Of a stretch of 48,567 bases of DNA, positions 1,749 through 38,351 are shown piece by piece. The stretch's first letter is position 1, and each line of letters begins with the position of its first letter. Position numbers and translations under genes: made by a program. The DNA lies in NCBI GenBank assembly GCA_005881275.1, contig VBEF01000054.1:1-48567 (forward strand). The letters run 5' to 3'. Under the pieces are notes generated by a model. That model was not told the origin of the DNA and did not search any database. It saw only the letters and a list, made by a program, of their open reading frames with translations. The stretch is from Chloroflexota bacterium. Its GTDB lineage: Bacteria > Chloroflexota > Dormibacteria > Dormibacterales > Dormibacteraceae.

Positions 1749-2216
1749 ATGCAGACCCAGCTCGCGCGCTCCAGCCGGAGCTTGCGGCGGGGTTCGACCG
1801 CCGGCTGGCGCTGGGGCCGGACGAGCGGCGAGCGCAGCCTGAGGCTCTATCGCCGGGTGGTCAAGGCCTGTGTGGGCGCTGAGAATCGCCGGCCCGTCCG
1901 GATTGTCATGAGGGTGGTTCCTCGCGCCGGCAAGGCGAAGGCAGCCGGCACTGTATTTGCTCCCGGCGAGAAGAGCACGCTGGAGCTGGGTTCGTGCATC
2001 GTCCTGAGCGCCCTTGGCCTCGGCATGCAGTTCGGCCGCTGGCCCGTGTGGTCGGCTCTGGTCGCCGTGGGCGGCTACCTGACGTGGGTCGTCATCTACT
2101 CCGAGGCGACGGTTCAGGCCAGGCGGCGTCGGGCCCTTCCCCGCCACCCGGCCTCCGCCGCCCTGGGCTCAGAAGAGACGGCCTCTTCGCCACCACAGGA
2201 ACAGATACCCACCTAG
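1749..2216 (+). CDS. Small two-helix membrane protein of unknown function
   Basis: The frame has the high third-position GC of its neighbours from about 1749 onward. The frame is open back to a TTG at 1671, but the codons before 1749 look less coding-like. A very basic N-terminal half (RSSRSLRRG, RLYRRVVK) is followed by two hydrophobic segments, around LELGSCIVLSALGLGM and VWSALVAVGGYLTWVVIY, and a short polar tail. I recognise no family. Its 3' end overlaps the end of the convergent phosphoesterase gene by 48 bases. No ribosome site is visible, so the start is uncertain. Confidence 0.4.
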   Translation: MQTQLARSSRSLRRGSTAGWRWGRTSGERSLRLYRRVVKACVGAENRRPVRIVMRVVPRAGKAKAAGTVFAPGEKSTLELGSCIVLSALGLGMQFGRWPVWSALVAVGGYLTWVVIYSEATVQARRRRALPRHPASAALGSEETASSPPQEQIPT

Positions 2217-7058: not shown

Positions 7059-8402
7059 ATGGCACTGCAGGAAGTCGCACGTCGCGTGTTGCTCGGCCAC
7101 TGGATGGTCATCGCCAGCCTGGTCATCGCATGCATGGCCGGCGTGACGGTGATTCATCTCCGCGAAGCGCCGACCTATACCGCGTCCACTCGCCTGGTGC
7201 TCGACGCCCCCGCACCCACTTCGCTGACGGAGGCAACCGCCATCGCCGACGGAGCGAAGGCCATCGTGACCAGCCCATCACACGTCAGCACCGCGCTGAA
7301 GAACGCCGGCGTGGTGCGCGATCCGGTTGCAGTCATTCGCAACATCACCCTGGCCCCGGGAGGCACATCAGGTGTGCTTCAGCTCTCGTACCAGGACTTG
7401 AATCCCGAGGCTGCGGCAGCGATCGTGAACGCTCTCGCCGACGACCTGATCCAGACACGGCTTGCGGTCAGCCCAGCCGCGCAGCGTGCCGCGCTCGACG
7501 ACCGGATCAGTGTGGCAATCGACCAGATCACCAAACTCGATCAGAAGATCGCCTCGCTGAACGATCAGCTTCAGGCGCTGCAGGTCGATCCCGCCAACGC
7601 GCAGACCGTCGCCGTTCGCGCGCAGATTCTCGCCTACCAGATCAGCGCGGACAGCAACCAGCGCGCCGCGCTGACACAGCAAGAGGTCCAGCTCGAGTCG
7701 GAACGCAACAGCCTCGTTGAGAGAGGCTCGGTTCCCAATCCATCGGTGATCGACAAGGCCTTCCCTCCATCCCATCCCGATCCGTCGCGCCTGCCCATCG
7801 ACCTCGGACTGGCGCTTGTGATCGGCGTGATCCTCGGCGTCGCGGTGTCCTCCGTGCTCGAGATCTTCGGACCGACTCTCGCGAGCGCCGAAGCCATCTC
7901 AGCTGCTCTGGAGACGCCTCTGCTGGGCTGGCTGTCGGAACCGACGGAAACCCTGCGCGACCGGCTTGCGCTGGCAGCGAGCGCAGCCGATGTGGGCGCC
8001 GTCGAGCTGCTTGGCGTCGGCAACATTCCGAGTCTCAGCGCGCTCGCGCGGAGCATGGAAGTGCCCGGTCCGGCTGAGGGCAAGGGACTTGCGATCTTCT
8101 CCGCCGAAGACGCGCCCCCCGCCTATCGCAACGGTTCCGCGTCACCGTCTTCCGGTTTTGTTCTGGTGACGCCAGAGCGAATCCGCAAGGCTGCGCTGGC
8201 CCCCGCACGGAATCTCCTCGCCATCAGCGGGCGCCCGCTTCTCGGCGTCATCGTCCACATGCCAGACCGACCGGCCGAGCCGACGGACCTGCCCAAGCCG
8301 CCGCGCAAAGCGTCGCCCCGCCTGGCGGTCGTCGACCGCGATGGCGATCCGCTGCAGGGCATGAGCCGCGAGATCGCGTCCGATCTGTGGGGTGGCCGTT
8401 GA
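7059..8402 (+). CDS. Wzz-like chain-length determinant with degenerate kinase-like tail
   Basis: This is a polysaccharide co-polymerase-type protein. Helix 1 lies at about residues 14-34 and helix 2 at about 246-266 (LGLALVIGVILGVAVSS). Between them is an extracytoplasmic region with coiled-coil character (IDQITKLDQKIASLNDQLQAL). After helix 2 a roughly 180-residue cytoplasmic region has the outline of a BY-kinase domain (opening PLLGWLSEP, closing GVIVHM) but no Walker A, A' or B motif, so it looks catalytically dead. As first gene of the operon it probably controls export or chain length. A second Wzz-like protein with a separate kinase-like partner lies at 27525-29292. The Wzz assignment is from topology and context. 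Confidence 0.75.
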   Translation: MALQEVARRVLLGHWMVIASLVIACMAGVTVIHLREAPTYTASTRLVLDAPAPTSLTEATAIADGAKAIVTSPSHVSTALKNAGVVRDPVAVIRNITLAPGGTSGVLQLSYQDLNPEAAAAIVNALADDLIQTRLAVSPAAQRAALDDRISVAIDQITKLDQKIASLNDQLQALQVDPANAQTVAVRAQILAYQISADSNQRAALTQQEVQLESERNSLVERGSVPNPSVIDKAFPPSHPDPSRLPIDLGLALVIGVILGVAVSSVLEIFGPTLASAEAISAALETPLLGWLSEPTETLRDRLALAASAADVGAVELLGVGNIPSLSALARSMEVPGPAEGKGLAIFSAEDAPPAYRNGSASPSSGFVLVTPERIRKAALAPARNLLAISGRPLLGVIVHMPDRPAEPTDLPKPPRKASPRLAVVDRDGDPLQGMSREIASDLWGGR

Positions 8403-9622
8403 AGCTGGTCCAACCCGAGTCCAGCTCTCAGCCTCGGATTCCATTTGCCAAGGCTGAGATAAGCGCCGAGGCGCAGGCCGCGTCGGCCCGGGTGCTTGCC
8501 TCCGGCTGGATCACCACCGGCCCCGAGGTCGTCGAGTTCGAGCGCGACTTCGCGGCGTTGGTCGGCGCCGAGCACGCGATCGCCGTCTCATCGTGCACCG
8601 CGGCGATTGAAATCGCGCTGCGCGCCCTGCGCCTTCCGCGCGGCGCCAAGGTCCTCACCTCGGTGATGACCTTCTGCGGCGCGGTGCACGCAATCGTGCA
8701 TGCCGGGCTGGAACCGGTTCTCGTCGACATCAATGCAGGAACGTTGATGCCCGACGCAGACACTGTCGCGGACGCGGTCCGCCGTGTCGGACCCGTGGAC
8801 GCGATGGTCGTCATCCACTTCGCGGGTTTTCCGGCCCCGGTCGAGGAGATGGCGGCCGCGGCCGGTCTTCCCCTTTCACGAGTGGTGGAAGACGCCGCGC
8901 ATGCAGTTGGGACCAAGGTCGGAACCGACTGGGTCGGCACGCTGAGCGCGGCGACGTGCTTCAGCTTCTACGCCACGAAGAACCTGCCGATCGGCGAGGG
9001 CGGAATGATCACGACCGACGACAGCGATGTGGCCGCATACGCGCGGCAGGTTCGCATCCACGGCATGAGCCACGACGCGTGGAAGCGATACCTCCCGGGC
9101 GCCGGCTGGCGATACGGAGTGGAGGTTGCGGGCATCAAGGCGAACATGACCGATGTCCAGGCGGCGATCGGGCGGGGGCAACTGCAGCACTTTCTCGACT
9201 GGCAAGATCGCCGCCAGGGACTTGCCGAAGCCTTCGACCGGCGGCTCTCACGAATCGCAGGATTGACAGGGCCGCAGTGGCCGGACCAGGGGCTGCACGC
9301 GTGGCACCTGTACGTGGTTCAGGTCATGCCTGAGTTTGGGATCGGCCGCGATGAGTTCATCAGCCGCCTGGCCGAGCGCGGCGTCGACTGCTCAGTGCAT
9401 TTCATCCCACTCCACCATCAGCCATATTTCGAGCAGCTTCTGGCGACCCAGGCCCCGCAGAGCTTTCCGGTCGCCGACGCAGTCTTTCCCAGGATCGTGT
9501 CGCTTCCTTTCTATCCCGGCTTGACCGACGACATGGTCGATCGTCTCTGGGAAGAGATCGACGGGCTGCGCGAGTCAGCAGCGCGAGAACCGCGGCTGGC
9601 GCAGCTTCGGGTGACGGCCTGA
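8399..9622 (+). CDS. DegT/DnrJ/EryC1/StrS family sugar aminotransferase
   Basis: This is a PLP-dependent aminotransferase that normally converts a 4-keto (or 3-keto) NDP-sugar into the amino sugar. Visible motifs are the substrate loop SGWITTGPEVVEFE, SSCTAAIEIAL, the PLP-binding EDAAHAVG, the catalytic lysine in FYATKNLPIGEGG, and C-terminal HFIPLHHQPYF. Length (about 407 residues) is typical. The TTG at 8399 overlaps the previous stop as TTGA and has GGGGTGG a few bases upstream; a GTG at 8387 is the alternative. The next gene is a CapD/PglF-like dehydratase, so the pair could act in sequence to make a UDP-4-amino-4,6-dideoxy-hexose. No acetyltransferase is seen nearby. Confidence 0.9.
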   Translation: MKLVQPESSSQPRIPFAKAEISAEAQAASARVLASGWITTGPEVVEFERDFAALVGAEHAIAVSSCTAAIEIALRALRLPRGAKVLTSVMTFCGAVHAIVHAGLEPVLVDINAGTLMPDADTVADAVRRVGPVDAMVVIHFAGFPAPVEEMAAAAGLPLSRVVEDAAHAVGTKVGTDWVGTLSAATCFSFYATKNLPIGEGGMITTDDSDVAAYARQVRIHGMSHDAWKRYLPGAGWRYGVEVAGIKANMTDVQAAIGRGQLQHFLDWQDRRQGLAEAFDRRLSRIAGLTGPQWPDQGLHAWHLYVVQVMPEFGIGRDEFISRLAERGVDCSVHFIPLHHQPYFEQLLATQAPQSFPVADAVFPRIVSLPFYPGLTDDMVDRLWEEIDGLRESAAREPRLAQLRVTA

Positions 9623-11139
9623 TGGCGCTCGAAATCGCGGCCAGCGTCTTCGAGCAAAACGACGCGCCGGCGCCGCGTCGCGCGAGGCGAGTCGGCGCCC
9701 TTCGCACGATCATCATCGGCGCCGGCGAGGCCGGCAAGACGCTGGCTCGCGACCTTCGGCGCACGCCTGAGTACGGGCTTCTGCCTCTCGGATTTCTCGA
9801 CGACAATCCTTCCGCGAAGGGACCCGCCGGAATCCCGATCTTGGGAACCACGTTGGAGCTCGAGTCGATCGCAGCTGCGTTCGATGTCGATGTAGCGGTG
9901 GTCGCCATTCCGTCGCTGAGCCCTCAAAACATTCGAAGACTCGCGCAGTCGGCGAGCGCTGCGGGGGTGAGCGTCCGCTACCTGCCATCTTTCGGCGCGG
10001 CTCTCGAACGCGACGCGCGCATCAGCGACCTGCGCCGGCTCAGAGTCGATCGGCTTCTCGGGCGGCAGGAAGTGCACGTCGTGCGCACCGCGTCACGCGC
10101 CGTGGTCGAGGGGAAGCGCGTCCTCGTGACCGGCGCAGGCGGCTCGATCGGAAGCGAGCTGTGTCGGCAGATCAGGTCATTCCGACCGGCGGCCCTGTAT
10201 CTCCTCGACCACGACGAGTCAAACCTGCACCGGCTTCAGATGGAGCTCGACGGCCAGGCCCTGCTCGACAGCGATGAGCTGTTGATCGCGGACATCAGGG
10301 ACAGCCACCGGATCAAGCAGCTCTTCGAGGACCTGAGGTTCGAGGTCGTGTTCCACGCGGCCGCACACAAGCACCTCCCGCTTCTGGAGCGCAACCCATG
10401 TGAGGGAATCAAGTCCAACGTCATGGGCACCAGGCACCTGGTGGAGGCCGCGGTCGACACGGGGGTCGAGCGATTCATCCTGATCTCGACGGACAAGGCC
10501 GCAGATCCGATATCGATCCTTGGCGCGTCGAAGCGAGTGGCCGAGATGATCGTGCAGGCGCACGCCGGCGGGTTCACGAGATTTGCGTCGGTGCGCTTTG
10601 GCAATGTCCTCGGCAGTCGCGGCTCATTCCTGTCGGTGCTGTCGGAGCAGATCGAAAAAGGCGAAGCCGTGACCGTCACACATCCCGACGTGACGCGATT
10701 CTTCATGACTGTCGAAGAGGCCGTGGGGTTGGTCATCGAATCCGCCAGCATGGCGGAGCTCGGCGAGACCTTCGTGCTCGACATGGGAGAGCCGGTGCGC
10801 ATCGTCGACCTGGTCCACAACTACGCGGCGCAGTTCAACCTCCATGAAGGCGACTTCGTGATCAGCTACACCGGACTGCGCGGGGGCGAGAAGCTCAACG
10901 AAGCTCTCTTCAGCGAGAGCGAGCAGCGCCTGCGCACCGAGCATCCGCGGATCTGGGCTGCCATGCCCGCCGCGCCAACGGCTGATCTCGATGTGGTCAT
11001 CGATCGCCTCATCGAGGCCGCGTCCTTCAACCGCAGCGCGGTCGTGCGCCAGCACCTTGCCGAGCTCCTACCCGCGTTCAGTCGCACGCCCACCGCCGCA
11101 GCACCGGCGCTCGCCGCTCCGTATCCGGACGGATTCTGA
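9622..11139 (+). CDS. CapD/PglF-like NDP-sugar 4,6-dehydratase, soluble form
   Basis: There are two Rossmann regions. The first starts at IIIGAGEAGKTLA (about residues 30-42), the domain that usually follows the membrane part in FlaA1/PglF/WbpM proteins. The second starts at VTGAGGSIGSEL (169-180) and is the SDR dehydratase. Further motifs are HAAAHKHLPLLE, the active-site STDKAADP, GASKRVAE and RFGNVLGS. The N-terminal membrane helices of long PglF/WbpM proteins are absent, so the protein should be cytosolic. It likely dehydrates a UDP-HexNAc to the 4-keto-6-deoxy form. The ATG overlaps the preceding stop by one base (TGATG), suggesting coupled translation with the aminotransferase. Confidence 0.9.
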   Translation: MALEIAASVFEQNDAPAPRRARRVGALRTIIIGAGEAGKTLARDLRRTPEYGLLPLGFLDDNPSAKGPAGIPILGTTLELESIAAAFDVDVAVVAIPSLSPQNIRRLAQSASAAGVSVRYLPSFGAALERDARISDLRRLRVDRLLGRQEVHVVRTASRAVVEGKRVLVTGAGGSIGSELCRQIRSFRPAALYLLDHDESNLHRLQMELDGQALLDSDELLIADIRDSHRIKQLFEDLRFEVVFHAAAHKHLPLLERNPCEGIKSNVMGTRHLVEAAVDTGVERFILISTDKAADPISILGASKRVAEMIVQAHAGGFTRFASVRFGNVLGSRGSFLSVLSEQIEKGEAVTVTHPDVTRFFMTVEEAVGLVIESASMAELGETFVLDMGEPVRIVDLVHNYAAQFNLHEGDFVISYTGLRGGEKLNEALFSESEQRLRTEHPRIWAAMPAAPTADLDVVIDRLIEAASFNRSAVVRQHLAELLPAFSRTPTAAAPALAAPYPDGF

Positions 11140-12314
11140 TGCTCCGCGTCGCACAGGTGATTACCCGATTCATCGCGGGCGCTGGCGGGGTGGCCTTGCG
11201 AGGCGCCGTAGCGCTCGACCCCGACAGGTATTCGGTCACGGTTCTGTCCGCGCCCGGCGGTCCGCTTCTTGCCGAGGCGGAAAGGGCCGGCATCGAGGTC
11301 GTCCGGCTCGCCCACATGCGCCATGAGATCAATCCGCTCGAGGACTACAGGGCGCTTGCAGAGCTGACGCGAGAGCTGCGGGCGCGAAATTTCGACGTCG
11401 TGCACACACACAGCAGCAAGGCCGGCGCTCTGGGACGAATCGCGGCGCGCCGCGCTGGCGTGCCGGCGATCGTCCACACCTTTCACGGCTTCCCCTTTCA
11501 CAACCGTCAGGCGTGGCCTCTTCGCGCGACCTACATCCAGGTCGAGCGAAGACTTGGCCGCATCACCGATCGATTCCTCGCGGTCGGCGGCGCCGTAGCG
11601 GCCGAAGCCATTCGCCTCAAGATCGCGCCGGCGGAACGGGTTCGCGCCATCGCCAGCGCGATCGATCTCGACATTCCAAAGGCGACGCAGAGCAGCCGCG
11701 CGTTGGCTCGCCGCCGCCTCGGACTGTCGGATGACTCGCTGGTCGTCGGAACCGTGGGCAGGCTCGCCCCGCAGAAGGCGCCCGCCGACATGGTCGCGGC
11801 CGTCGAAGCGCTTGGTCGCAGGGACGTCGCCTTCATATGGATCGGCGATGGACCGCTGGCGGAGGCGACACGGGCTTTGGTCGCCCGCAAAGGAATGGAG
11901 GATCGGTTCGTCCTGCTGGGCGAGCGAGACGATGTTGCGACGCTGCTGCCTGCGCTGGACGTCTTCGCGCTCGCGAGTCACTACGAAGGCCTGCCGTGCT
12001 CGGTCGTCGAGGCCATGACTTGCGGGATACCCGTTGTCGCGACCGCGGTCAACGCAGTCCCCGAAGTCGTGGTCCCCGGCCGGACCGGCTTGCTCGTGCC
12101 GCCCGGCGAGCCCGCGCTGCTCGGCAAGGCGGTCGGCTATCTGCTCGATCACCCGAACGAGGCCATGCGCATGGCGCAGGCCGCCCGCACGCAGCTCGGC
12201 GATCGCTTTCACCCGGCCGTGCTCGGCCGCGACCTGGAGGAGACGTACGAGCTGGCGCTCAACGGCTCGTCGCCGGCGATGACGCCGCCGCTGGGCATGG
12301 TGGCCCATGCGTAA
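11139..12314 (+). CDS. GT4 family glycosyltransferase
   Basis: A GT-B fold glycosyltransferase of about 391 residues. The N-terminal acceptor domain has VHTHSSKAGALGR and TFHGFPFH. The C-terminal donor domain has VGTVGRLAPQKAP, WIGDGPL, and the family signature YEGLPCSVVEAMTCG with its two glutamates, followed by VPEVV. It is probably retaining and uses an NDP-sugar to extend the lipid-linked repeat unit on the cytosolic side. It starts at an ATG overlapping the previous stop by one base and ends 8 bases inside the next gene. It is the only stand-alone glycosyltransferase in the operon, so the repeat unit is short or other transferases lie elsewhere. Donor and acceptor cannot be read from sequence. 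Confidence 0.9.
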   Translation: MLRVAQVITRFIAGAGGVALRGAVALDPDRYSVTVLSAPGGPLLAEAERAGIEVVRLAHMRHEINPLEDYRALAELTRELRARNFDVVHTHSSKAGALGRIAARRAGVPAIVHTFHGFPFHNRQAWPLRATYIQVERRLGRITDRFLAVGGAVAAEAIRLKIAPAERVRAIASAIDLDIPKATQSSRALARRRLGLSDDSLVVGTVGRLAPQKAPADMVAAVEALGRRDVAFIWIGDGPLAEATRALVARKGMEDRFVLLGERDDVATLLPALDVFALASHYEGLPCSVVEAMTCGIPVVATAVNAVPEVVVPGRTGLLVPPGEPALLGKAVGYLLDHPNEAMRMAQAARTQLGDRFHPAVLGRDLEETYELALNGSSPAMTPPLGMVAHA

Positions 12315-13284
12315 GCAGATGCTGACCACCGCGGGCGAGCGCATCGCGATCGACTGCGACCTGCCGTGGGTCGATGAGCTGATCAACGAGGCTACGGCCG
12401 GCGAACGCCGCGACGCCGACGCCGAGCGGGCAACGCTGGCCGTGCGCGTCGAGTCCTCGAGCCGGCCCTTCCACACGACTGCCTGGGAGCCGGTGACGCG
12501 CGGCGCATGGAGGCGGGCGAAAGAGGTGGTGCTGGAAGACGTCTGCGGGTCAGGTTTTGACCTGCGGCTCGCAAGCGGCGCGGAGCGCATGGACTTCACC
12601 TATCGCTGGCGGCCCAAGCTGCGCGGCCAGGTCGTCGCGCGCCTCCTCCCCTCTCGCTTCATCCTGCTTGCCCGGGCGGCGCTCCTTCAGTATCCCGCCA
12701 TGTGGCGCGCGAGCCTGCGCGACCGCGCTCCTCTTCACGCATCGGTCTGCACCGCAGGCGACCTGCGGCCGCTCCTGGCCGGTCCCGGAGGGGTTGGCAA
12801 GTCGACCCTCCTGATGCAGGAGATCGCGGACGGTGGAGTCGCCATCTGCGACAACATCTGCGTCAGCGACGGAAGCACAGCCTGGGGCCTGGTCGAGCCG
12901 GTGCGCGTCGAAGGCGGGTCAGGGCGTGCGATGCCCCACGGACGTGTCGAGCGACAGCTGGCGAGACGCGTCCCGGCGCTTGTGCCCGACATCATCGTTT
13001 CGCTGCGCCGGAGCGAGGACAGCGTCGCGGTTGTGAAGCCGTGCGACCCTGCCACCGCGGCCCGTTCGCTGATCACCGGGACATTCATCGCGGGTGAGCT
13101 TCGCCGTTACTGGAGCTTCGCGGCCACGCTGACAGCCGCGACCGGGTTGGGACCCGCGCAGGCGCCGGTCGAGGAGATCGCGGAACATCTGGCGGCTCGG
13201 CTGCCGGCAGTTGAGATCGTGCTTCCGAACCGGCCGGGTCTCCGCCTCTCGGAGCTTCTCAACCGCGTGGAGGCGATCGCGTGA
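12307..13284 (+). CDS. HPr-kinase-like P-loop protein in glycan operon
   Basis: A 325-residue soluble protein with a P-loop at residues 159-167 (GPGGVGKST), followed by a second acidic strand (VAICDNICVSDG) that resembles the HPrK/P fold. The N-terminal 140 residues lack a recognised domain. HPrK-related kinases in other genomes sit beside asparagine-synthase-like, PqqD-like or polysaccharide genes and are not true HPr kinases; no HPr or phosphotransferase-system gene is seen here. The gene overlaps the glycosyltransferase by 8 bases and the following RtcB-like gene by 4 (GTGA), so it should be co-translated with both. Substrate unknown. An alternative reading is a generic AAA-type ATPase, but the loop spacing favours the HPrK-like group. 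Confidence 0.65.
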   Translation: MRKQMLTTAGERIAIDCDLPWVDELINEATAGERRDADAERATLAVRVESSSRPFHTTAWEPVTRGAWRRAKEVVLEDVCGSGFDLRLASGAERMDFTYRWRPKLRGQVVARLLPSRFILLARAALLQYPAMWRASLRDRAPLHASVCTAGDLRPLLAGPGGVGKSTLLMQEIADGGVAICDNICVSDGSTAWGLVEPVRVEGGSGRAMPHGRVERQLARRVPALVPDIIVSLRRSEDSVAVVKPCDPATAARSLITGTFIAGELRRYWSFAATLTAATGLGPAQAPVEEIAEHLAARLPAVEIVLPNRPGLRLSELLNRVEAIA

Positions 13285-14732
13285 GCAGCGAGCTGCTTAC
13301 CGAAGACTGGCAGCTCGAGTCAGAGGAAGCTGAGTTTCAGCCCCGCATCTTCGACAGCCGGGATCATCCGGTTCGCGCGGACTCGCTCGCGCTGCTGAGG
13401 AGCGGCATCACGGACATCGACCTGGCAGCACCGCCGGCGGTTCTGCCCGACTTCTATCACAAGGCCCTGATGGAGATGCCTTCGAGCATCGCCGTGGCGA
13501 CGCGCGAGACCATCCGGCCGATCTTCACGAGCGCCGCGCTGAACTGCGGCATGGCGCTTGCCGCCCTGGACATCGACAGGCCTGACGAGGCCGCGATCAG
13601 CGAGTTCTACGACGGCATTCGCTCCATACACCCATATCCGCCCAGCTACAAGCCGGTGCTGTCCGCCCGCGAGGTCATCCGCTGCGCCGTCGAGGGTGCC
13701 CGTTTTGCCGTTGACCGCTACGACCTCGACCCCTCCGAGCTGGACAGGATCGAGGAAGGAGGCCGCCTCGACGTCGAGCCATTCGGCGGCGAGCCGCGAG
13801 TCCGCAGCGAGCTTTCCTGGATGGCCACACAGCTGTCGCGCATTCGGTTCGGCACCGTCGGGCCGAGCACCCACTTCGTGGAGCTGCAGCAGGTCGAAGA
13901 GGTTCTGGATCAGGAAGCTGCGCGCAAGCTCGGACTTCACCTCGGCCAGATCACGATGCAGTACCACGGCGGCGACGGCGTGCTCAACATCCAGATGGGC
14001 CAGCGATTTGGACGCCGCCTGGCCGGCTCGAGGGCCCTCCGCGTCGTGATGGGCGTCCAGAAGCCGATGTACCAGCTCGCTTCGGTTCGCTCGCGCCGCC
14101 AGCTGAAGGAGCGAATGTCACTTTACTTCTCGAAGGGCTGCCCGCCCGTCCCGCGCGATAGTGAAGAGGGCGAGCGCCTGATGCTCGCGAATGCCGTCGC
14201 GATGAACTACGGCTTTGCCTACCGCCAGGCGACCTACTCCACCCTGCGCTCCACGGCGCAACGCGCCTTCGGGGCCAGGATGAATTTGATCGTCGACTCT
14301 CCTCACAACACGATCTACGACGAGACGATCCGGGGAGAGGCCGCCGTGGTCCACCGCCACAACAGCGCGCGGGCCTTTCCCGCGTCGAGGATGCAAGGCC
14401 ACCCCGTGTTCGGGGAGACCGGGATGCCGCTCTTGCTGCCGGGCACCAACCGCACCTCGTCCTTTCTATGTGTGGCCGCCGAGGGCGCGCATCAGTCCCT
14501 GTACTCGGCGTCGCACGGGACGGGGAGCATCATCACCGACTTCGCGCGGCGCGGCCTCTCGGGGCCCGATCCACTCGGCCACACGACGCTGCGTTTCCGC
14601 TACCAGGACCGAACCGCCACCGTCGTTCCGCACCTGGACGACAACGGCGTCACGGAAGGCCTCCGGATTCTCGTGGCCAGCGACCTCGTCAGACCTGTGG
14701 CTCGCCTCCGGCCATTCGCGGTCCTGAACTAA
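13281..14732 (+). CDS. Divergent RtcB-like protein embedded in polysaccharide operon
   Basis: The whole RtcB motif series can be followed in order: LPDFYHKAL (compare PDxHxGxG), TSAALNCGMAL (compare YDINCGM), FGTVGPSTHFVELQ (compare GTLGSGNHFxE), MQYHGGDG (compare IHSGSRG), ANAVAMNYGFAYRQ, VDSPHN (compare DVAHN), VVHRHNSARAFPA (compare VHRKGATRAFP), LLPGTNRTSSF and SASHGTGS (compare APHGAGR). The predicted metal ligands C89, H198, H229 and H342 and the guanylylated H412 are kept. The aspartate normally three residues before the cysteine is Ala86, the Asn before H198 is Thr197, and the arginines four residues after H229 and H412 are Gly and Ser. Known RtcB joins 3'-phosphate and 5'-OH RNA ends; with these changes the substrate may differ. 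Start is GTG after GGAGG, overlapping the kinase stop. Confidence 0.8.
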   Translation: MSSELLTEDWQLESEEAEFQPRIFDSRDHPVRADSLALLRSGITDIDLAAPPAVLPDFYHKALMEMPSSIAVATRETIRPIFTSAALNCGMALAALDIDRPDEAAISEFYDGIRSIHPYPPSYKPVLSAREVIRCAVEGARFAVDRYDLDPSELDRIEEGGRLDVEPFGGEPRVRSELSWMATQLSRIRFGTVGPSTHFVELQQVEEVLDQEAARKLGLHLGQITMQYHGGDGVLNIQMGQRFGRRLAGSRALRVVMGVQKPMYQLASVRSRRQLKERMSLYFSKGCPPVPRDSEEGERLMLANAVAMNYGFAYRQATYSTLRSTAQRAFGARMNLIVDSPHNTIYDETIRGEAAVVHRHNSARAFPASRMQGHPVFGETGMPLLLPGTNRTSSFLCVAAEGAHQSLYSASHGTGSIITDFARRGLSGPDPLGHTTLRFRYQDRTATVVPHLDDNGVTEGLRILVASDLVRPVARLRPFAVLN

Positions 14733-14734: not shown

Positions 14735-14905
14735 GTGAGCGCGTCTCGCAGCACGGACAGCCTGGAATTCCGGCTGCACAAGATCCATCAGCGGCACCGC
14801 CGAGAATTCATCCGGCAGCTCGTGACCATGGCGTTCTGGAGCGTCGGCCTGCTCGCCATGCTCGCCTTTGTCGTGGCGCTTGCGATCGGTACCGTTTCGA
14901 GATGA
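14735..14905 (+). CDS. Small single-helix membrane peptide (56 residues)
   Basis: A GTG at 14735, two bases after the RtcB-like stop, opens a frame that ends at 14905 and overlaps the next ATG as ATGA. The product has a charged N-terminal half (SLEFRLHKIHQRHRREFIRQ) and one hydrophobic helix (WSVGLLAMLAFVVALAIGTV). No ribosome site is strong, but its exact fit between two coupled genes supports expression. Function unknown; the basic amphipathic half followed by a helix would suit an adaptor anchoring a cytosolic partner to the membrane. Confidence 0.6.
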   Translation: MSASRSTDSLEFRLHKIHQRHRREFIRQLVTMAFWSVGLLAMLAFVVALAIGTVSR

Positions 14906-16182
14906 TCGCGTCCTGGGCTCGTGCCGGCCTCGGGCCGACCCCAGTCCGCACGGCGATGGGAATCCGAGTCCCGCGGTGGGTGCTGGTGCCTGTCGTTCTT
15001 GGCGTGGCAGCTCTTCCCCTGCTCAAGCCGTCCGGGCCGGGCAACTCTTCTCCGGTGGACATCTATTTCGCGATCAGCATCGGCGTGGCGATCCTGTGGG
15101 CAGGCCTGGCGGCGCAGGACCTGCGCCTGCCGTACGCGCTGGCGACGGGAATTTTCATGGTCGGCGGCGCGATTGGCTCGCTCGCGGGCCCGTATCCCCG
15201 CGAGGGCCTGCTGGCGCTCGTCCAGGACCTCGTCCTGCTGCTGTGGTGCGGCGTCCTCGTCAACACGGCTCGCTCCCCGACCGCTTTCAAGTGGATCGTC
15301 CGGGCCTGGGCGTGGAGCTCGGTCGCCTGGGCTTTGCTCCTGTTCGCCGGCGTCGCCACCGGCAACGCTGCAATCGCCGGCGTATCTGATCGCACCGGGG
15401 TTCGCGCGTCGCTGACGTTTGGGGATCCAAACTACGCCGCCAACTACTTCTTCCTGTCCTTCATGGTGGTGATGGCCACCCGCACGCCACGCAACCGGCT
15501 GCTTCGCCTTGCCTGCTGCGGCGCGCTGCTCGGTGCTCTCGCGCTCACCGGCTCCAACGGTGGGCTGCTTTCGTGCGCGGTGGGAGTCAGCGTGGTCGTC
15601 CTCTTTTATGTGGCGCGACGGTGGGGCACGCTTCCGCTGGTCGCCACAGCGAGCTTCGCCCTCGTGGCCGCGCTCATCGTCCTGGCCATGGCGCAAGCGC
15701 TGCCGATCGAAGCGATCGCCAAGGACAGCGGCATTCCCCTGCTCCGGGATTCGATCGGCCGCAGCTCACAGAGCGCCCAGGAGCGCCAGTGGTTGATCAC
15801 GGAGACGATCGATCTCTACAAGCAAGGCGTGCCTTGGGGCCTCGGACCAGGCTCGACCAAACCGCTGCTCCAGACCCAGCTGGCGCCCTACGCCTTCCAA
15901 ACGCATGACGACTACATCGAATCGATCGTCGAGCGCGGGCTGATCGGCGCCTTTGGCCTGCTGGTGCTCATCGGATCGGTGGGCTGGCGGACATGGTCCG
16001 TGGCCGCCAAACCGCTGAGCGCGGAATTCGCAGCGATCTTTCCTCGCACCTCCCCGCTCGCCGGGGCTGTCGCTGGGCTTGCCGTGTCGGCCTCGTACTA
16101 CCAGATTCTTCATTTCCGCCACGTCTGGACGTTGCTCGCCATCATCGCCGCTCTATTCGTCTGGGGCAGACGGCGGCCTTGA
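14902..16182 (+). CDS. O-antigen ligase/polymerase-like membrane protein
   Basis: A 426-residue protein with around ten to eleven hydrophobic segments. Typical for the O-antigen ligase (Wzy_C) family are a large extracytoplasmic loop near residues 265-335 (SIGRSSQSAQERQWLITETIDLY, then WGLGPGSTKPLLQ and THDDYIESIVERGLIGAFGLL) and FGDPNYAANYFFLSF in the middle. Members either polymerise repeat units or ligate finished chains to an acceptor. With a Wzx-like domain directly downstream and two Wzz-like proteins in the window, a Wzy-type polymerase is the simpler reading. It overlaps the preceding small gene by 4 bases and the next gene by 1. Confidence 0.8.
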   Translation: MIASWARAGLGPTPVRTAMGIRVPRWVLVPVVLGVAALPLLKPSGPGNSSPVDIYFAISIGVAILWAGLAAQDLRLPYALATGIFMVGGAIGSLAGPYPREGLLALVQDLVLLLWCGVLVNTARSPTAFKWIVRAWAWSSVAWALLLFAGVATGNAAIAGVSDRTGVRASLTFGDPNYAANYFFLSFMVVMATRTPRNRLLRLACCGALLGALALTGSNGGLLSCAVGVSVVVLFYVARRWGTLPLVATASFALVAALIVLAMAQALPIEAIAKDSGIPLLRDSIGRSSQSAQERQWLITETIDLYKQGVPWGLGPGSTKPLLQTQLAPYAFQTHDDYIESIVERGLIGAFGLLVLIGSVGWRTWSVAAKPLSAEFAAIFPRTSPLAGAVAGLAVSASYYQILHFRHVWTLLAIIAALFVWGRRRP

Positions 16183-18131
16183 TGAGGCAGCTCCTGCGGG
16201 CCGATCGGCGGCCGTTCGTCGAAAACATCGTCGCCCTCTTGGGCTCCATGGCCGCGCTCGGCATCGCAACGCTGTGGGTTGCCCGGGCAGGCGGACCCGA
16301 TGCTGTCGGCTCTTACGCGCTGCTGCGCATCCTGCCGTGGCTGCTGGCCGTGGTCGTCTCGGGTGGTCTCGCGGGCTCGCTCGCGTACTTCCTCTCAGGC
16401 CCCACTCGTGACGACCCTCAGGTGCGGCCAACGGTCGTCGCCATGGCGCTGGCCGGCGCGGTGGCCGGGTCGGCGCTCTGGCTGATAGGAACGCCTCTGC
16501 TGCAGCTGGTGTTCTTCCGGCACGTTTCCGTCGGCCTCGTCGCGGCGGTGGCGATCCTTGTTGCGCTGCGCCTCTTCGTCATCACCGGCAAGGCGGCCGC
16601 CCAGGGATCGGGAGATCTGAGCGGAAGCAACCTGACGATCTTCCTCGAGGAGCTCATGTTCCTTCCCGCCTTCGGCCTCATGCAGGCGGTCGGCATCGGC
16701 GGCGACAGCGCTCTGGTCGGCGCCCTGATCCTTGCCGACGTCGCAACGGGGGCGATCGCGTGGAGGAGGTTGCTGCGCGGTGGTTTCCTGGCCGGGGCAG
16801 GCCGACCCTCGCTCACCATGGCGCGGCAGATCTACACGTTCGGCACGCGTGGCCAGCTCGGCACCCTGATGCAGCTGCTGAACCTTCGCTTCAATTTCAT
16901 CTTGCTCGGCGGTCTCGCCGGGCCTGCCGCCCTCGGCATCTACGCGGTCGCGGCCAAGTACGCCGAATTCCTTCGCCTGCTGCCCATCGCGGCCAACTGG
17001 GTGCTCTATCCGCAGTTCGCGCGGTCGGAAGCAGCGCACGCCAAGAAGACATCCCGCAGCCTGATCCTTCGTGCCGGAGCGATCACGGCGGTGGCCTCGA
17101 TCCCGCTGGCTGTGGGGGCGAGTTTCGTCATCCCAATACTTTTCGGCCAGGTGTTCACGGGCGCGGTTCTACCGGCGCGCATCCTTTTGATCGGCCTGGC
17201 CGCCGAAGGGGTGGGAGGCGTGGTCACGGCTTTCCTCTTTGGACGAGGACGGCCGGGCCTGAACTCGCTCGCGGCCGGCGCCGGAGTGCTTGTCACCCTG
17301 GGCCTGGACCTGATCCTGATCCCGCGCTACGGCGCCGTCGGAGCGGCCGTCGCCTCGAGCGCGGCTTATCTGACCACGACGGCGACGCTCGTCGGCTGGT
17401 ACTGGCACACGACGCGCAGGATCGATCGGCACGCGCCGCCGCCCGTCTTCGAGGGCCTTGCCAGCGTGCCTCCAAGCCGATGGCGGCGCATCCTCGATGT
17501 GGCCGTTTCGCTGATCGTGCTGGCCGTCTTCTGGCCGGTCCTGCTCGTCCTGCTTGCCGCGGCACGGATCAGCACGAATGCTTCGGCGATCTACCGGCAG
17601 GTGCGCGTGGGCCAGGGAGGCGTGCCCTTCACGATGTACAAGATCCGCAGCATGCGCCCGGGGCAGGGCGGTCCCGAGATCACCGGGCCCGGCGATCGCC
17701 GCGTGACAAGGCTCGGCGCCCTGATGCGGCTGACCAGTCTCGACGAGCTGCCCCAGCTGCTGAACGTGCTTCGCGGTGAGATGACGTTGGTCGGGCCGCG
17801 GCCTGAGACGCTGGCCCTGGCCGTGCGCTATCCGAGCGACATGCAGCGCGTCTTCGCCTATCGCCCCGGATTGACTGGCCCTGTGCAGGTGCGGCTTCGC
17901 GATGTCGTTCCGAGCGACGTGGAGGACGTGGAGGCCTTCTACATCAGCGAACTGCTCCCCCATCGCACGGAGCTCGACCTCGCCTACCTGAGCGACCCGT
18001 CGCTCATCGCAACCATCAGCCTCATCGGCGAGACGGCCAAGCACGTCGTCTCCCGCGGTGTGACCAAGCTCGTGGCCAGGTCGCGTCGCCGGGCGGGGTT
18101 CGTGGGCGAGCTGAAGGAGCGCACGACTTGA
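16182..18131 (+). CDS. Wzx-like flippase fused to bacterial sugar transferase (initiating phosphoglycosyl transferase)
   Basis: One continuous frame of 649 residues. Residues 1 to about 430 are a polytopic polysaccharide-export domain of the MOP/Wzx type (many helices, for example [41 protein letters not shown]). From about 432 a complete bacterial sugar transferase follows: [20 protein letters not shown] membrane hairpin, [44 protein letters not shown] with the catalytic Asp-Glu pair, and LVGPRPE. The transferase half should move a sugar-1-phosphate onto undecaprenyl phosphate; the flippase half should translocate the finished lipid-linked unit. The two are normally separate proteins. The ATG at 16182 overlaps the preceding stop (TGATG); an in-frame start at 15993 would lie inside the upstream gene and is rejected. 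Confidence 0.85.
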
Positions 18132-19573
18132 GAGTTCCCGAGGGCCTGGTGACGGCGCACGCGCCGCCTGGACCCCCGCGACAGGTACGCGCGGTGCGTT
18201 GGTCTCCGGCCGCTCGCGCGCTGCTCGGTGGAATGGCGCTGCTGGCGATGATCCTGGTGCCGGTAGGACACATCACAGGCGACGCCAGCAGCAGCCCCCC
18301 GCACATCCTGATGACGGTGTTCGAAAACACGAGCTACTCGACTGTCGTGGGTAACCCATCCATGCCTTACCTCAACGGACTGCTCGCGGCCAACGGTTCG
18401 ACCAGCACCACCGATCTCAGTCATCCCAGCCTGCCCAACTATCTCGGCCTGACCTCCGGCTCCATCTACGACAACCCACGGGACACCACCCCACAGGCAT
18501 CGACTTATCCGGGCCCGCAGTTCACCGACGAGCTGGCGACCGCCGGCATCGGGTGGAAGGCGTACATCGAGGACATGTCGATCGCCTGCGACCTGACGGA
18601 TACGTTCGGCCCGAACCAGTACGACGTGAATCACAACCCGTTCATGTACTACACCTCGGTCCGCAGCAATCCAACCGAGTGCAATCAGGTCGTCCCTTTC
18701 ACGCAGCTCACGGCCGATCTGAACGCGGGAGGCGCACCGCCTTTCGTCTGGGTGACCCCAGACAACGCGAACGACGGACACGACGGCTCGCTCTCGACGG
18801 CTGACGCTTTCCTCCAGGGCCTTGTCACCCAGGTGCAGGCGTCGAGCTGGTGGACGCCCGGGAGCCGGATCATCGTCACCTGGGACGAAGGTGCTGGATC
18901 CGAGCAGGTGCTGACGCTGGTGGTCGGCTCCAAGTCGGGCACTCCGGTGGTCAGCGGCAATCATTACGGCACCCTCCGTGGTCTGGAGGAGGCCTACGGC
19001 GTCGGGCTTTTGGGGCACTCGGCCGACGCCAATGTGGGAGACCTGCTTCCTCTGCTCTCCGACTCCGCCACCCCTGCGCCGACCCCCACTCCTTCGCCGA
19101 GCGCCTCCCCTTTCCCCACCCCGTCCCCGCCGCCGGCGCTTACGCGTACAGCGACCGCCGTCACCTCCACCCCCTCTTCGCAGGGCTACCAGCGTCCCGC
19201 TCAGGACAAGGTCGCTTACCTCCACGATGGATCGCTCCTGATCGGACTTTTTGATGGAAGCAAGGGAGTCATCGACCAGGTGCGAAACCCTGCCTCGAGC
19301 TCGCAGTCGCTCGCCATGGTCCAGACCATCTCCGGCGACGAGGTGACCCTTTACACGCTGCCGGGCGCGACGAGCACCGACATCTGGATCCAGGCCGGCG
19401 CCGAGATCATCGGTTCCGCTCCGCTGGAACAGATCCGGCACGGCACATATAACGGCACCACCTTCACCTGGGACTCGGCGACTGTGATTCCCGGGACTGT
19501 TTCACCCGGCCGTCAGGATCCTTCAGTCACCTGGACCGGAAAGTGGCTGATCGCGCGACCGCGATCCTCATGA
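18128..19573 (+). CDS. Secreted phosphoesterase paralog 2, 5' part of a frameshifted gene
   Basis: The TTG at 18128 overlaps the previous stop (TTGA) with GAAGGAG eight bases upstream. A signal anchor (ALLGGMALLAMILVPVG) leads into a phosphoesterase domain very like those at 2169 and 24118: FENTSYSTVVGNPSMPYLNGL, HPSLPNYLGLTSGS, YDVNHNPFMYY, VTWDEGAGSEQVLTLVVGS. A Pro/Ser/Thr linker is followed by a beta-propeller-like start (QDPSVTWTGKWLIA), and the frame then stops after RPRSS. The rest continues in the -1 frame from 19543, which is open back to 19453. One missing base near 19558-19562 would join the two as KWLIARP-AILMTTT. So this is either an interrupted gene, a sequencing error or a programmed shift. 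Confidence 0.75.
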   Translation: MRVPEGLVTAHAPPGPPRQVRAVRWSPAARALLGGMALLAMILVPVGHITGDASSSPPHILMTVFENTSYSTVVGNPSMPYLNGLLAANGSTSTTDLSHPSLPNYLGLTSGSIYDNPRDTTPQASTYPGPQFTDELATAGIGWKAYIEDMSIACDLTDTFGPNQYDVNHNPFMYYTSVRSNPTECNQVVPFTQLTADLNAGGAPPFVWVTPDNANDGHDGSLSTADAFLQGLVTQVQASSWWTPGSRIIVTWDEGAGSEQVLTLVVGSKSGTPVVSGNHYGTLRGLEEAYGVGLLGHSADANVGDLLPLLSDSATPAPTPTPSPSASPFPTPSPPPALTRTATAVTSTPSSQGYQRPAQDKVAYLHDGSLLIGLFDGSKGVIDQVRNPASSSQSLAMVQTISGDEVTLYTLPGATSTDIWIQAGAEIIGSAPLEQIRHGTYNGTTFTWDSATVIPGTVSPGRQDPSVTWTGKWLIARPRSS

Positions 19574-24117: not shown

Positions 24118-26154
24118 ATGAGCACCCGACGTCCGATATGGACACGCGTCCGAGAAGCTAGCAGCAGCGCCCTGCTCAGAGCAGGCAGCGTTGGGCTCCC
24201 GATCGTGATCGCTCTGTCGTGGCTTCTTGTGCCCGCCGGCCAGGGCGCCCAGGCGGCGGGAAGCCCGCCGCACATCATGGTCGTCATGATGGAGAACACC
24301 AGCTACGAGGCGGTCGTCGGCAATCCCGCGATGCCCTTCCTCAATGGCCTCGTCGCCAGCAACGGATCTGTCAGCACCACCGACCTGAGCCATCCCAGCC
24401 TGCCCAACTACCTCGGCCTGATCTCGGGATCGATCCAGAACAATCCACCGGACACAACGCCGCAAGACGGGACGTACGCGGGCCCGCAGCTGACCGATGA
24501 GCTGGCGGCAGCCGGCATCAGCTGGAAGGCCTACATGGAGGACATGCCGATACCGTGCGACCTGACCGATCAGTTCGGCCCGGGTCAATACGACGTCAAC
24601 CACAACCCGTTCATGTATTTCGATTCAGTCCGCAAGAACCCGGCCCAGTGCAGCCGCGATGTGCCTTATCCGCAGCTGGCCGCCGACCTCGCCGCGGGGA
24701 CCGCCCCCGCCTTTGCATTTGTATCTCCGAACACGATCAACGACATGCACGACGGGAGCGCTGCGCAGGGCGACCAGTTCCTCAAGGGCCTGGTCGGCCA
24801 GGTCAGGGCCTCGAGCTGGTGGACCGCGGCGAGCCGGATGATCATCACCTGGGACGAGGGAGCGGGGTCGGAGCAGGTGCTGACGCTCGTCGTGGGTTCG
24901 GCGCATGGCACGGCGGTTCGCGCCGGCAACGAGTACGGGACCCTGCGGGGCATCGAGGAGGCCTACGGCGTCGGACTGCTCGGCCACTCCGCCGACGGCA
25001 ACGTCGGTGACCTGCTCCCTCTCCTGACGGGAAGAGCGGCCGCGCCGCCGCCCCCGGCTCGTGCGCCCAACCCAGCGCCGCCACCGGTCCCGTCCCCACA
25101 GCCCGCTCCCCCACCCGACCGAAGCCGGGCGGAGGGCTCGCTTCCCGATTCGTATGTCCGCGGCGTCTACGGCAAGGATTCCAGCCCAACGGGTTTCACC
25201 GAGATCGCCTCGCTCGGATTCAACACCGTGATGACCGATCCCTACAAGGAGCGCCTCGACCCGTTGAGCGCCGCGGGATTGAAGGGCATCGTCTGGCTGG
25301 GCGCGTGGCACAACGCTCCAGCCTGCAAGTTCGAAAGTGACGACGCCACGATCAGGTCGCAGGTGAGCCCGATCGCCGGCCACAAAGCCATCCTTGCGTA
25401 CTACCTCGGGGACGAGCCGAAAGTGAGCGAATGCCGGAACGCACCCGCGCTTTTCAAGCAGCGGAGCGCCCTCGTTCACTCGCTGGATCCCACCGGCCAG
25501 ACGTTCACCGTCCTCCAGGCGTTCGAGAACGGAATCGCCAACGACTACGCGCCATGGGCAGGAACGGTCGACCTCCTCGGCTTCGACGTCTACCCATGCG
25601 CCAGGGCCGCTTCGTCCTGCGAGCCCACCAACATCGACACGGCCATCGCCGCGATCCACAAGGCGAAGATCACTCGCTACCTGGCGGTCGTACAGGATTT
25701 CCAGGACTGCTACTACCGTCTGCCTACCGCGCCCGAGCTGGCGAGCCAGTTCAACCACTGGGCTGACTCAAACATGTCCGGCTACCTGGTCTTCTCGTGG
25801 AACTATCAGTCCGCGAACGCAGCTTGCGCCGGTACGAACCTCCACGACCATCCGGCCAACCTCGCGCAGCTGAAGTACGAAAACTCACAGATCTTCTTGC
25901 CTGCAAAACCGACTGCATCGACCGGTCCCGCGGGAAGGGGTTCGCTGTTGACCGCAGGACGAGAGGTGGTCGGAGTTGCCCTGCCGATCGCCGCGATCAT
26001 CGCGGCCCTGGGTGCGTACGTATTTCTCGTCCTGGTACGTGCGAAACGGCGCCGCCTCAGGGCTCTAAGCCGACAGCCGGTCGAACAGCCTCCAGTGCGA
26101 CCGAGCGAACTCGATGTGGTCAGCGGTCGCGGCGACGTCGACGAGCCCCGCTAG
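24118..26154 (+). CDS. Secreted phosphoesterase paralog 3 with GH-like domain and C-terminal anchor
   Basis: A signal peptide (LPIVIALSWLLVPAGQGAQA) leads to a phosphoesterase domain with MMENTSYEAVVGNPAMPFLN, HPSLPNYLGLISGS, YDVNHNPFMYF and ITWDEGAGSEQ. A short Pro-rich linker leads to a barrel-like domain homologous to that of the 1479-residue paralog (YYLGDEPKVSEC, LLGFDVYPC, LVFSWNY). There are no PKD or FN3 repeats. A C-terminal helix (GVALPIAAIIAALGAYVFLVLV) is followed by a basic tail (RAKRRRLR), the usual pattern for a cell-surface-anchored protein. It is the last gene of the operon, 12 bases after glmS. Its 3' end overlaps the convergent kinase gene by 90 bases. Possible roles are removal of phosphate substituents or trimming of surface glycans; this is inference. 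Confidence 0.85.
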   Translation: MSTRRPIWTRVREASSSALLRAGSVGLPIVIALSWLLVPAGQGAQAAGSPPHIMVVMMENTSYEAVVGNPAMPFLNGLVASNGSVSTTDLSHPSLPNYLGLISGSIQNNPPDTTPQDGTYAGPQLTDELAAAGISWKAYMEDMPIPCDLTDQFGPGQYDVNHNPFMYFDSVRKNPAQCSRDVPYPQLAADLAAGTAPAFAFVSPNTINDMHDGSAAQGDQFLKGLVGQVRASSWWTAASRMIITWDEGAGSEQVLTLVVGSAHGTAVRAGNEYGTLRGIEEAYGVGLLGHSADGNVGDLLPLLTGRAAAPPPPARAPNPAPPPVPSPQPAPPPDRSRAEGSLPDSYVRGVYGKDSSPTGFTEIASLGFNTVMTDPYKERLDPLSAAGLKGIVWLGAWHNAPACKFESDDATIRSQVSPIAGHKAILAYYLGDEPKVSECRNAPALFKQRSALVHSLDPTGQTFTVLQAFENGIANDYAPWAGTVDLLGFDVYPCARAASSCEPTNIDTAIAAIHKAKITRYLAVVQDFQDCYYRLPTAPELASQFNHWADSNMSGYLVFSWNYQSANAACAGTNLHDHPANLAQLKYENSQIFLPAKPTASTGPAGRGSLLTAGREVVGVALPIAAIIAALGAYVFLVLVRAKRRRLRALSRQPVEQPPVRPSELDVVSGRGDVDEPR

Positions 26155-27444
26155 AACCGCGTCCCGCCAGCGCTCGGGATCCGCGCCAAGCCGGACGAGG
26201 CCGTTCTGAAGAAAGCTGCGAAAGAGGTCTGGAAACCACCCTTCGCCCCCGATGGCGTATTCGATCCCCGCGCCCCAGTTTCCCGCAGTGAGCCCGCTGT
26301 GCCCGGCGACCGCCCGGCCCGGGCGCGTGTGGCGGTCGAGGTAGAGCGCATACGACAGGGCGAATCGAGCGAGGTCCCGCACCGGGTCTCCGGCGACCAT
26401 GCCGGCTTCCCAATCGACGACCCCGGTGATCTCGTCGCCCCCCAGCAGCAGGTTGCCAAACCAGAAGTCACCGTGCACGGGTGTGCGGGGCGAGCGCTGA
26501 GCCCCAAGTCGCTTCTGGATGGCGATAAGCCGGTCCATCACTGGTGGAAATCGATCCTCGGCGCCGAAGCGCTGGAAGAGAATGTCAGCCGCGTGATTGT
26601 GTAGCTCGATCGGGTTCCGCTCGCCGCTCACCGAGGCCTGGAACTTCGCCAGCCAGCGCTCCGCCATCGCGAAGTCCTGTCGCACCGCTGCCGGGCTGGC
26701 GACGTGGTGCCAGGAGTGATAGCGGACCGTCATCGGAGTTCCCTGGAGCGCGGTCGTGACCAGGGCAAGATGCTCCGGCGCATGCGGCAGCTCGCTCACC
26801 GCTGGAATCGTCGCCAGCACGTCCCCGGGCAGCGCAGACCGCAGCTCGACGAGCACGCGACGTTCCGCCGCGAGGCTCGCCTGCGCTGACTCTGTCGTCG
26901 CCACCTTCATCGCCAGCTCGGGCTCCGAGCTGCCGCTCGGGATGAACAGAACCGTGACTTTTGCGTTCGGGTCCTTGGACAGCGCGAGCACCACGGAATG
27001 CATCCCGGCCATGGCGATGAGGTCGCTGCTTTGCGTCGCGGCTCCAGGTTCGGCATCGCCTGGCGCTGTCAACCCCAATGCGATCCGGGTCGGAACCACG
27101 GCGCCAAGAAAGTTCCGCGGCCAGGAGAAACGCGCAGCCGCTCTCGCGCCTGCGAGCACCGCCGATGCGGCCATGCCTCCCCGGGGGAGGGCCAGCACAT
27201 GGGACACGAAGTACCGAACGGCCTCAGGTGTGTCCTCCACGTAGCAGGTCGGTGAGGCGGCGGCTGGAATCCCGAGATACTCGCGCGACACGGTGATCCC
27301 GGCGCTCTTCGCGAATCGACGAAGCAGGCCGCGAGATCCGACTCCGCCCGAGATCAGAATGACCGATGTCGCCGCAGGCAAGGCCCGGATCTGTTCCAGC
27401 AGCGTGCGCCGTGCGGCACGTGTTCCGGGAACATCGAGCTCCAT
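26065..27444 (-). CDS. APH/choline-kinase-like phosphotransferase with extra N-terminal domain
   Basis: The C-terminal half holds the aminoglycoside-phosphotransferase signature: VHGDFWFGNLLL (catalytic Asp in the HGD motif and Asn five residues later) and GVVDWEAGMVAGDPVRDLARFA (metal-binding Asp). The N-terminal 200 residues (for example SVILISGGVGSRGLLRRFAK, YFVSHVLALPRGG, VLFIPSGSSEPELAMKV) include the ATP-binding lobe plus an extra segment I do not recognise. At 459 residues it is longer than typical APH enzymes. The frame is open to 27546, but the added 34 residues are low-complexity and overlap the upstream gene, so the ATG at 27444 is preferred. Beside glycan genes, a sugar or lipid-linked substrate is more likely than an antibiotic. 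Confidence 0.75.
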   Translation of the reverse strand: MELDVPGTRAARRTLLEQIRALPAATSVILISGGVGSRGLLRRFAKSAGITVSREYLGIPAAASPTCYVEDTPEAVRYFVSHVLALPRGGMAASAVLAGARAAARFSWPRNFLGAVVPTRIALGLTAPGDAEPGAATQSSDLIAMAGMHSVVLALSKDPNAKVTVLFIPSGSSEPELAMKVATTESAQASLAAERRVLVELRSALPGDVLATIPAVSELPHAPEHLALVTTALQGTPMTVRYHSWHHVASPAAVRQDFAMAERWLAKFQASVSGERNPIELHNHAADILFQRFGAEDRFPPVMDRLIAIQKRLGAQRSPRTPVHGDFWFGNLLLGGDEITGVVDWEAGMVAGDPVRDLARFALSYALYLDRHTRPGRAVAGHSGLTAGNWGAGIEYAIGGEGWFPDLFRSFLQNGLVRLGADPERWRDAVLAGLVDVAATADHIEFARSHWRLFDRLSA

Positions 27445-27524
27445 CGTGTTCGGGCTAACCAGGGGCCGCCAGGGCGGCGGCGGATCCGGAGCCGAGATGG
27501 ATTGCCCCGGCGGGCGAGACCGGG

Positions 27525-28346
27525 TTACAACAGCGGCCGGAGCCATGCGGGCGTTCGTTCGTCCGTCCCGTTGAGGACGATCCCATTCACGCGTTTCTTG
27601 CCGATCGATTTGATGGACCTCTCCAGGTCGTCGGTGAGCGTGACGCCGCTGCGTGCCACGATCAGGAGCCGATCGGCCAGCCCGAAAGCCAGCGAACCGT
27701 ATGAGATGTTCAGCGTGGGAGGCAGGTCCATGACCACGTTGGCAAACGTCTCTCGAAGGCCGAGCATCACCTCACGGTCGACGAGCTGGTAGAAGAACCG
27801 GGCGGGCTCGCTCTGCGGTGTGCCGGCCGGAATCATGAACACGTTGGGCACGAGCGCCGCGCCGCGAACAACGCGAAGACGGGAATCGCCGTCCAGCCAC
27901 TCGCTCAGCCCCCGACCCTGGTCCAGGCCGAGAAACTTGTGCAGCGAGGGAGCCGCGAAGTCGCATTCGACAAGCAGCGTCGGCTTCTTCGTATCGATGG
28001 CCATCGCCGTCGCGATGCCGATCGCGACCGCCGTCTTGCCCTCGCCGTAGGCGGTGCTTGTCACACCCAGCACGCGGCACTCCGCCGCCGCGTCAAAGGC
28101 AACCGACAGATAGGCTCGCCTGCAGCGGTCGACGAACCAGGATGGCAGCTCAACCCCGCTGGCTCGCTCAATCCGAGGGTCCGCGAACCCCGGCAGAGTC
28201 TGACGCGGGCTCAGCGCCTCGGTGATCGACTCCCGGAATTCCGTGGCGACCGCGTTGCCCTGCTTGACGTCATCCTCAGCCGCCATCTCCTCGGGGGCCC
28301 GGGGGTCACGCGGGCCTTCCTTCTCGCTGACGACGCTAGAAGCCAC
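27525..28346 (-). CDS. BY-kinase/CpsD-like P-loop ATPase without tyrosine tail
   Basis: This is the cytoplasmic ATPase that pairs with a Wzz-like membrane protein to control capsule or EPS export. Walker A is STAYGEGKTAVAIG, Walker A' LLVECDFAAPSLHKFLG, Walker B VVMDLPPT, and the closing strand is NGIVLNGT. The C-terminus ends in WLRPLL with no tyrosine cluster, so the autophosphorylation seen in CpsD/Wzc-type kinases is doubtful. The start is GTG at 28346 with GGTGAG upstream; it overlaps the wzz-like stop by 11 bases. The N-terminal 75 residues are charged and probably flexible. Confidence 0.8.
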   Translation of the reverse strand: MASSVVSEKEGPRDPRAPEEMAAEDDVKQGNAVATEFRESITEALSPRQTLPGFADPRIERASGVELPSWFVDRCRRAYLSVAFDAAAECRVLGVTSTAYGEGKTAVAIGIATAMAIDTKKPTLLVECDFAAPSLHKFLGLDQGRGLSEWLDGDSRLRVVRGAALVPNVFMIPAGTPQSEPARFFYQLVDREVMLGLRETFANVVMDLPPTLNISYGSLAFGLADRLLIVARSGVTLTDDLERSIKSIGKKRVNGIVLNGTDERTPAWLRPLL

Positions 28347-36592: not shown

Positions 36593-36604
36593 CGTCAACC
36601 CCAG

Positions 36605-38245: not shown

Positions 38246-38310
38246 CGCCGTGATGTTGCCCAGGGTCGGTGTCTTTTGGGAATGGGAATCGCCCGACCCA
38301 CCGGGTAATT

Positions 38311-38331: not shown

Positions 38332-38351
38332 AGCGCTTCACGTAGGACCGC

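Follow-up and report, generated by a model that had tools for sequence, protein, structure and literature searches.

What does a relative of RtcB, an enzyme known to us only as a nucleic-acid ligase, do among genes for polysaccharide assembly? The question is raised by a 48,567-nucleotide stretch of DNA (the window; contig C122 of genome G000) from the MAG of a soil bacterium of the Dormibacterota (Chloroflexota); among named genomes its closest relatives are Candidatus Dormibacteraeota and Dormiibacter MAGs. An original prediction, made from the letters of the window, had placed an RtcB-like protein at 13281-14732 (+) inside a polysaccharide operon, and both parts of this assignment were borne out. 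The open reading frame starts with GTG, overlaps the stop of an HPrK-like gene by 4 nt (GTGA) and encodes 483 aa, of which residues 53-481 match PF01139 (RtcB) with E = 2e-40 and 139.8 bits (cut-off 27 bits). The protein remains below the curated cut-offs of the NCBIfam RtcB models, and comparison with solved chains identified it as RtcB (E = 1e-26). Structure prediction, which had been proposed as a check, gave an AlphaFold model with pLDDT 82 and pTM 0.86. A Foldseek search with this model returned RtcB for all of the top 16 matches (E ~1e-23, TM 0.64-0.69) and, without exception, for every match at E < 0.001; these TM values and an rmsd near 6 A support the fold but not the fine geometry. 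The product is an RtcB-fold protein of the RtcB superfamily: the superfamily is known, the member is divergent and its setting is new.

Searches of whole genomes and named genomes found homologs of this divergent type in 14 genomes: nine Dormibacteria (including that of the window), four members of another Chloroflexota class and one Gemmatimonadetes-labelled MAG. Those compared were 34-79% identical to the window protein. In a maximum-likelihood tree of 53 rows the 11 near-complete members split off with support 100/100 on a branch of 1.25 changes per column; long branches meet at this split, and shared substitutions and gene order concur with it. Judged by these sequences, the homologs form a separate and strongly supported clade. 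The clade is rare and patchy: 5 of 331 genomes of a phylum-wide draw have a member, and within the window's genus it was absent from the other 16 genomes (0/16). Two borderline Chloroflexota matches, G497 and G561, were rejected as members, being ordinary RtcBs that adjoin archease. The viral and plasmid collections held ordinary RtcBs only, among the matches listed, and no relative of the HPrK-like kinase was found in plasmids. There is a single carrier in Gemmatimonadota (1/151 in its order, 1/240 in the phylum), so that transfer or mis-binning is possible. The contig concerned (L028, QHTZ01000100.1) holds a Dormibacteria-type operon with the RtcB-like and HPrK-like genes.

The window's operon is of the Wzx/Wzy type, and most of its genes overlap. 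A chain-length determinant-like gene with weak Wzz/GNVR matches (7059..8402, +) is followed by genes for a DegT/DnrJ/EryC1 aminotransferase (8387..9622, +), a WbpM/CapD-like polysaccharide nucleotide-sugar dehydratase (PF02719; 9622..11139, +) and a family 4 glycosyltransferase (11139..12314, +), which has an 8-bp overlap with the start of the HPrK-like gene. Downstream of the RtcB-like gene lie a member of the O-antigen ligase/polymerase family (Wzy_C; 14902..16182, +) and a Wzx-type flippase fused to a PglC-type initiating sugar transferase (16179..18131, +; the frame is listed from 15993, and the ATG at 16179 overlaps the Wzy stop). The gene thus stands between glycosyltransferase and polymerase genes, as had been predicted. 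Between the RtcB-like gene and the Wzy gene there is a short ORF (14735-14905, +) that probably has one membrane segment and overlaps the start of the Wzy gene. Related loci carry glycosyltransferases and/or a Wzx flippase, a polymerase or sugar-nucleotide enzymes. In the second Chloroflexota class the neighbours of the pair include a Wzx flippase gene immediately downstream and genes for GT2, radical-SAM, epimerase and UbiA-type prenyltransferase proteins; the G620 locus also has a PPDK-like protein. A ~140-aa protein and an APH-type phosphotransferase are encoded directly downstream of the RtcB-like gene in five loci of the Dormibacteria type (L028, L060, L061, L062 and L039); in the window the two are fused (26065..27546, -). 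PADLOC gave no match to known anti-phage defence proteins. Taken by gene content, these settings point to glycan or lipid-carrier assembly.

The gene directly upstream (12307..13284, +; 325 aa) encodes a putative HPrK-like P-loop kinase. The overlap of the two genes that the original prediction described was seen (4 bp), and the kinase assignment is a remote HMM match. On its own the window's kinase gave a weak match to ScmC (0.005); because distant members of its family match HprK_rel_A at 2e-11, kinship with HPrK is suggested for it too. The family conserves the motifs G-x-x-G-x-G-K-S, DN, EP and HGR. Its distant members share the P-loop and DN region with HprK-related kinases A and B (TIGR04352 and TIGR04355, 2e-11 and 6e-10), from which they differ in lying far under the 200-bit cut-off (best 43 bits) and in being paired with an RtcB-like protein. 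Six sequences were tried for structure prediction, and the model was poor (pLDDT 59) with no significant Foldseek match.

In a profile search the HPrK-like gene stood directly upstream of the RtcB-like gene in 14/14 loci. Among 110 genomes of the Dormibacteria class both genes occurred in the same nine, a coincidence whose chance would be 2e-13 under independence of the genomes, an assumption that does not hold. In the second class (298 genomes) all four carriers of the RtcB-like gene also have the kinase; a fifth kinase gene, in the same cluster in G571, is cut at the contig end where the RtcB-like gene would come, and one more kinase match is weak and partial. Substituted homologs scattered among ordinary RtcBs away from glycan genes, which the original prediction had named as counting against it, are therefore not what the search returned: they form one clade (100/100), accompanied by the kinase in 14/14 cases and set in glycan loci.

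Alignment with Pyrococcus RtcB agreed with the predicted residue map. C89, H198, H229, H342 and H412 correspond to C98, H203, H234, H329 and H404, the last being the guanylylated histidine (H412 codon 14514..14516, +), and A86, T197, G233 and S416 replace D95, N202, R238 and R408. In addition, H360 takes the place of the Lys of VHRKG and N483 that of K480. The four substitutions do not all define the clade. Loss of D95 and R238 is clade-wide, but T197 is local, being common to the window protein, G029 and G419 only while the remaining members have Asn, and Arg408 is retained in a single member, L057. Clade-wide changes that had not been predicted are VHRKG to VHRHN, PGSMGT to PGxxRT and loss of the YKD loop; K480 is changed to Asn in the Dormibacteria part, and Lys is retained in the other Chloroflexota members. 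Ser or Ala occupies the D95 position in 13/13 readable clade members and Asp in 42/42 comparison RtcBs (15 cellular or plasmid and 27 mostly viral), a separation that Fisher's test describes with 7e-13, relatedness being ignored. R238 to Gly and VHRKG to VHRHN were likewise found in the 13 readable members. D95, the VHRKG Lys, R408 and the YK of YKD are kept in 42/42 comparison RtcBs and altered throughout the clade or nearly so.

The covalent-catalysis centre is preserved. The nucleophile His404 and the metal-A ligands Cys98, His234 and His329 are invariant in all readable members and, with H203, E206, S385 and D65, remain so in the clade down to ~35% identity; on the GMP side of the RtcB-like protein, E201 and S394 are invariant. 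Nine chosen catalytic positions all fall within the 67 of 483 positions that are invariant (p ~1e-8). No clade member retains the guanine-side loop (YKD, Glu). In human RTCB, metal A is bound by Cys122, His259 and His353 and metal B by Asp119, Cys122 and His227; the GMP phosphate is contacted by Asn226 and His428 and held by metal A, and the guanine base contacts Glu230, Ser409 and Lys504 (PMC8668186). Mapped from these residues, the window protein has retained the two Cys/His sets together with the nucleophile, Glu and Ser; the metal-B Asp, the Asn (Thr in its place) and the Lys (Asn in its place) are missing. The conversion from human to Pyrococcus numbering was made by alignment and is in part presumed. 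With guanine-contact residues lost, use of GTP by the protein is not certain. Since the missing residues would be expected to bind RNA, metal B and part of the guanine, the acceptor, and perhaps the nucleotide, would seem to have changed.

Ordinary RtcBs of these phyla adjoin archease (L063, L064, L123-L126, L128), and archease is absent from the loci of the clade. As predicted, the window itself has no archease ORF, and neither RtcA nor RtcR was found among the ORFs scanned. A full-length ordinary RtcB is also present in 5 of the 14 clade-bearing genomes. The window's genome has an ordinary remnant only, of 120 aa and N-terminal, and no other RtcB was seen in G024 and G025 (92% completeness). 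These genomes, with the RtcB fold and the nucleophile retained, would suit a protein that is still an RNA (or tRNA) ligase and whose gene lies in a glycan operon by chance. We regard this as very unlikely, since residues kept in every comparison RtcB are changed, archease is lacking, the clade was never seen outside the kinase/glycan setting and the gene is missing from other genomes of the genus. The remnant (L026:5776-6138, contig C111 of G000) stops soon after its DISCG motif, and G013 has a related ordinary RtcB (L024:7719-8762) that is also short.

RtcB chemistry activates a phosphomonoester with GMP carried on His and then joins it to a hydroxyl. Since the putative kinase would make phosphomonoesters and RtcB chemistry starts from one, phosphorylation followed by nucleotidyl activation is the simplest joint reading of the two genes. 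We tentatively favour, at somewhat less than even confidence, a pair of HPrK-like kinase and covalent nucleotidyl-transferase acting on a phosphorylated substrate of the polysaccharide pathway (glycan, lipid). In its favour are the invariant catalytic positions, the constant kinase partner, the glycan loci, the separate clade, the coexistence of full-length ordinary RtcB beside archease in five of the genomes and the way in which human RTCB holds the GMP phosphate. For this reading we infer catalytic activity, nucleotide, substrate and order of steps as follows. The two proteins would act sequentially on a sugar, a polyprenyl-linked glycan or similar: the kinase would phosphorylate a hydroxyl, the RtcB-like enzyme would form a covalent nucleotidyl-histidine at H412 with metal A held by C89/H229/H342, and the NMP would be moved to the kinase-made phosphate, giving an activated pyrophosphate. 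This could be the final NDP-linked donor, or an intermediate then joined to a hydroxyl as a phosphodiester. Against this reading, D95, the guanine-side loop and, in the Dormibacteria part, K480 are lost, so that the enzyme may use something other than GTP or may fail to be loaded; moreover, Thr replaces Asn202 in the window protein, and the HPrK assignment is a remote HMM match with a poor model. The original prediction of a re-purposed nucleotidyl-transfer enzyme is borne out in part: the retained nucleophile and metal-A site fit nucleotidyl transfer, and use of GTP is in doubt at the guanine site.

The same pattern of loss and retention bears on two other accounts. The protein could have kept hydrolysis of cyclic phosphodiesters, the first and metal-dependent half of what RtcB catalyses, and as a phosphohydrolase or phosphodiesterase remove or rearrange a kinase-added phosphate, so that the pair would tune glycan export; the kept metal-A ligands, the lost RNA- and guanine-side residues and the constant kinase partner agree with this, but a hydrolase would not need the invariant nucleophile H412 or the GMP-side E201 and S394, and we hold it to be unlikely. 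Also unlikely is a catalytically silent or regulatory role, in which the metal protein would bind or activate the kinase and the two would form a protein switch controlling the polysaccharide machinery. Such a partner would fit the strict pairing and the loss of D95, R238 and, for the most part, R408 and K480, yet all five metal or nucleophile side chains are present in every readable member.

Compared with RtcB RNA ligase (P. horikoshii, human RTCB; PF01139), the protein shares the fold, the Cys/His metal-A ligands, His203, the nucleophile His and the Glu and Ser of the GMP pocket. It differs in overall sequence (~21-29% identical), in insertions that follow the H229 motif and lie close to residues 268-290, in loss of the metal-B Asp, Arg238, the VHRK lysine and the guanine-side loop, in the change of the base-contact Lys480 of the C-terminal LKG to Asn in the window protein, and in its setting, a glycan operon with an HPrK-like kinase and no archease. 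RtcB2-PrfH (PRK09588/TIGR03073) is similarly an RtcB paralog in a two-gene unit, but the window protein scores 63 and 34 bits against cut-offs of 407 and 272, and the partner of RtcB2 is a release factor instead of a kinase. Galactose-1-phosphate uridylyltransferase (GalT) works via uridyl-His, and FKP is a kinase plus pyrophosphorylase pair. The likeness to both lies in the proposed principle only (phosphorylation, then NMP transfer, through a nucleotidyl-His in GalT); the folds are unrelated and the activity of the RtcB-like protein is putative. In open-access papers we found no link of RtcB to glycans or HPr-type kinases. It is possible, though on balance doubtful, that the RtcB fold was recruited from RNA repair to surface-glycan assembly, where with a dedicated kinase it would provide nucleotidyl-activated or phosphodiester-linked glycan parts via nucleotidyl-histidine. 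If true, RtcB would have a role that does not involve nucleic acids. In this clade the covalent-catalysis centre is kept, residues typical of RNA ligases are gone and one kinase is a constant companion in glycan loci; together these features make a concrete case that the fold supports a second chemistry. The two genes serve as a marker for what may be a new phosphate modification of glycans.

Three PF04185 phosphoesterase genes flank the operon (2169-6608, -; 18128-19573, +; 24118-26154, +), and part of the last matches a lipoprotein-like gene directly 3' of the RtcB-like gene in L019 and L020. Further along the window, a type IV pilus / type II secretion cluster (31848-38341, -; PilM-like, T2SSF, T2SSE and N-methylation prepilins) adjoins two-component regulators. 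In the second class, a ~490-aa family that has no Pfam match recurs beside the pair (L057:11760-13247, L040:12098-13576, L059:1739-3286 and 3283-4752).
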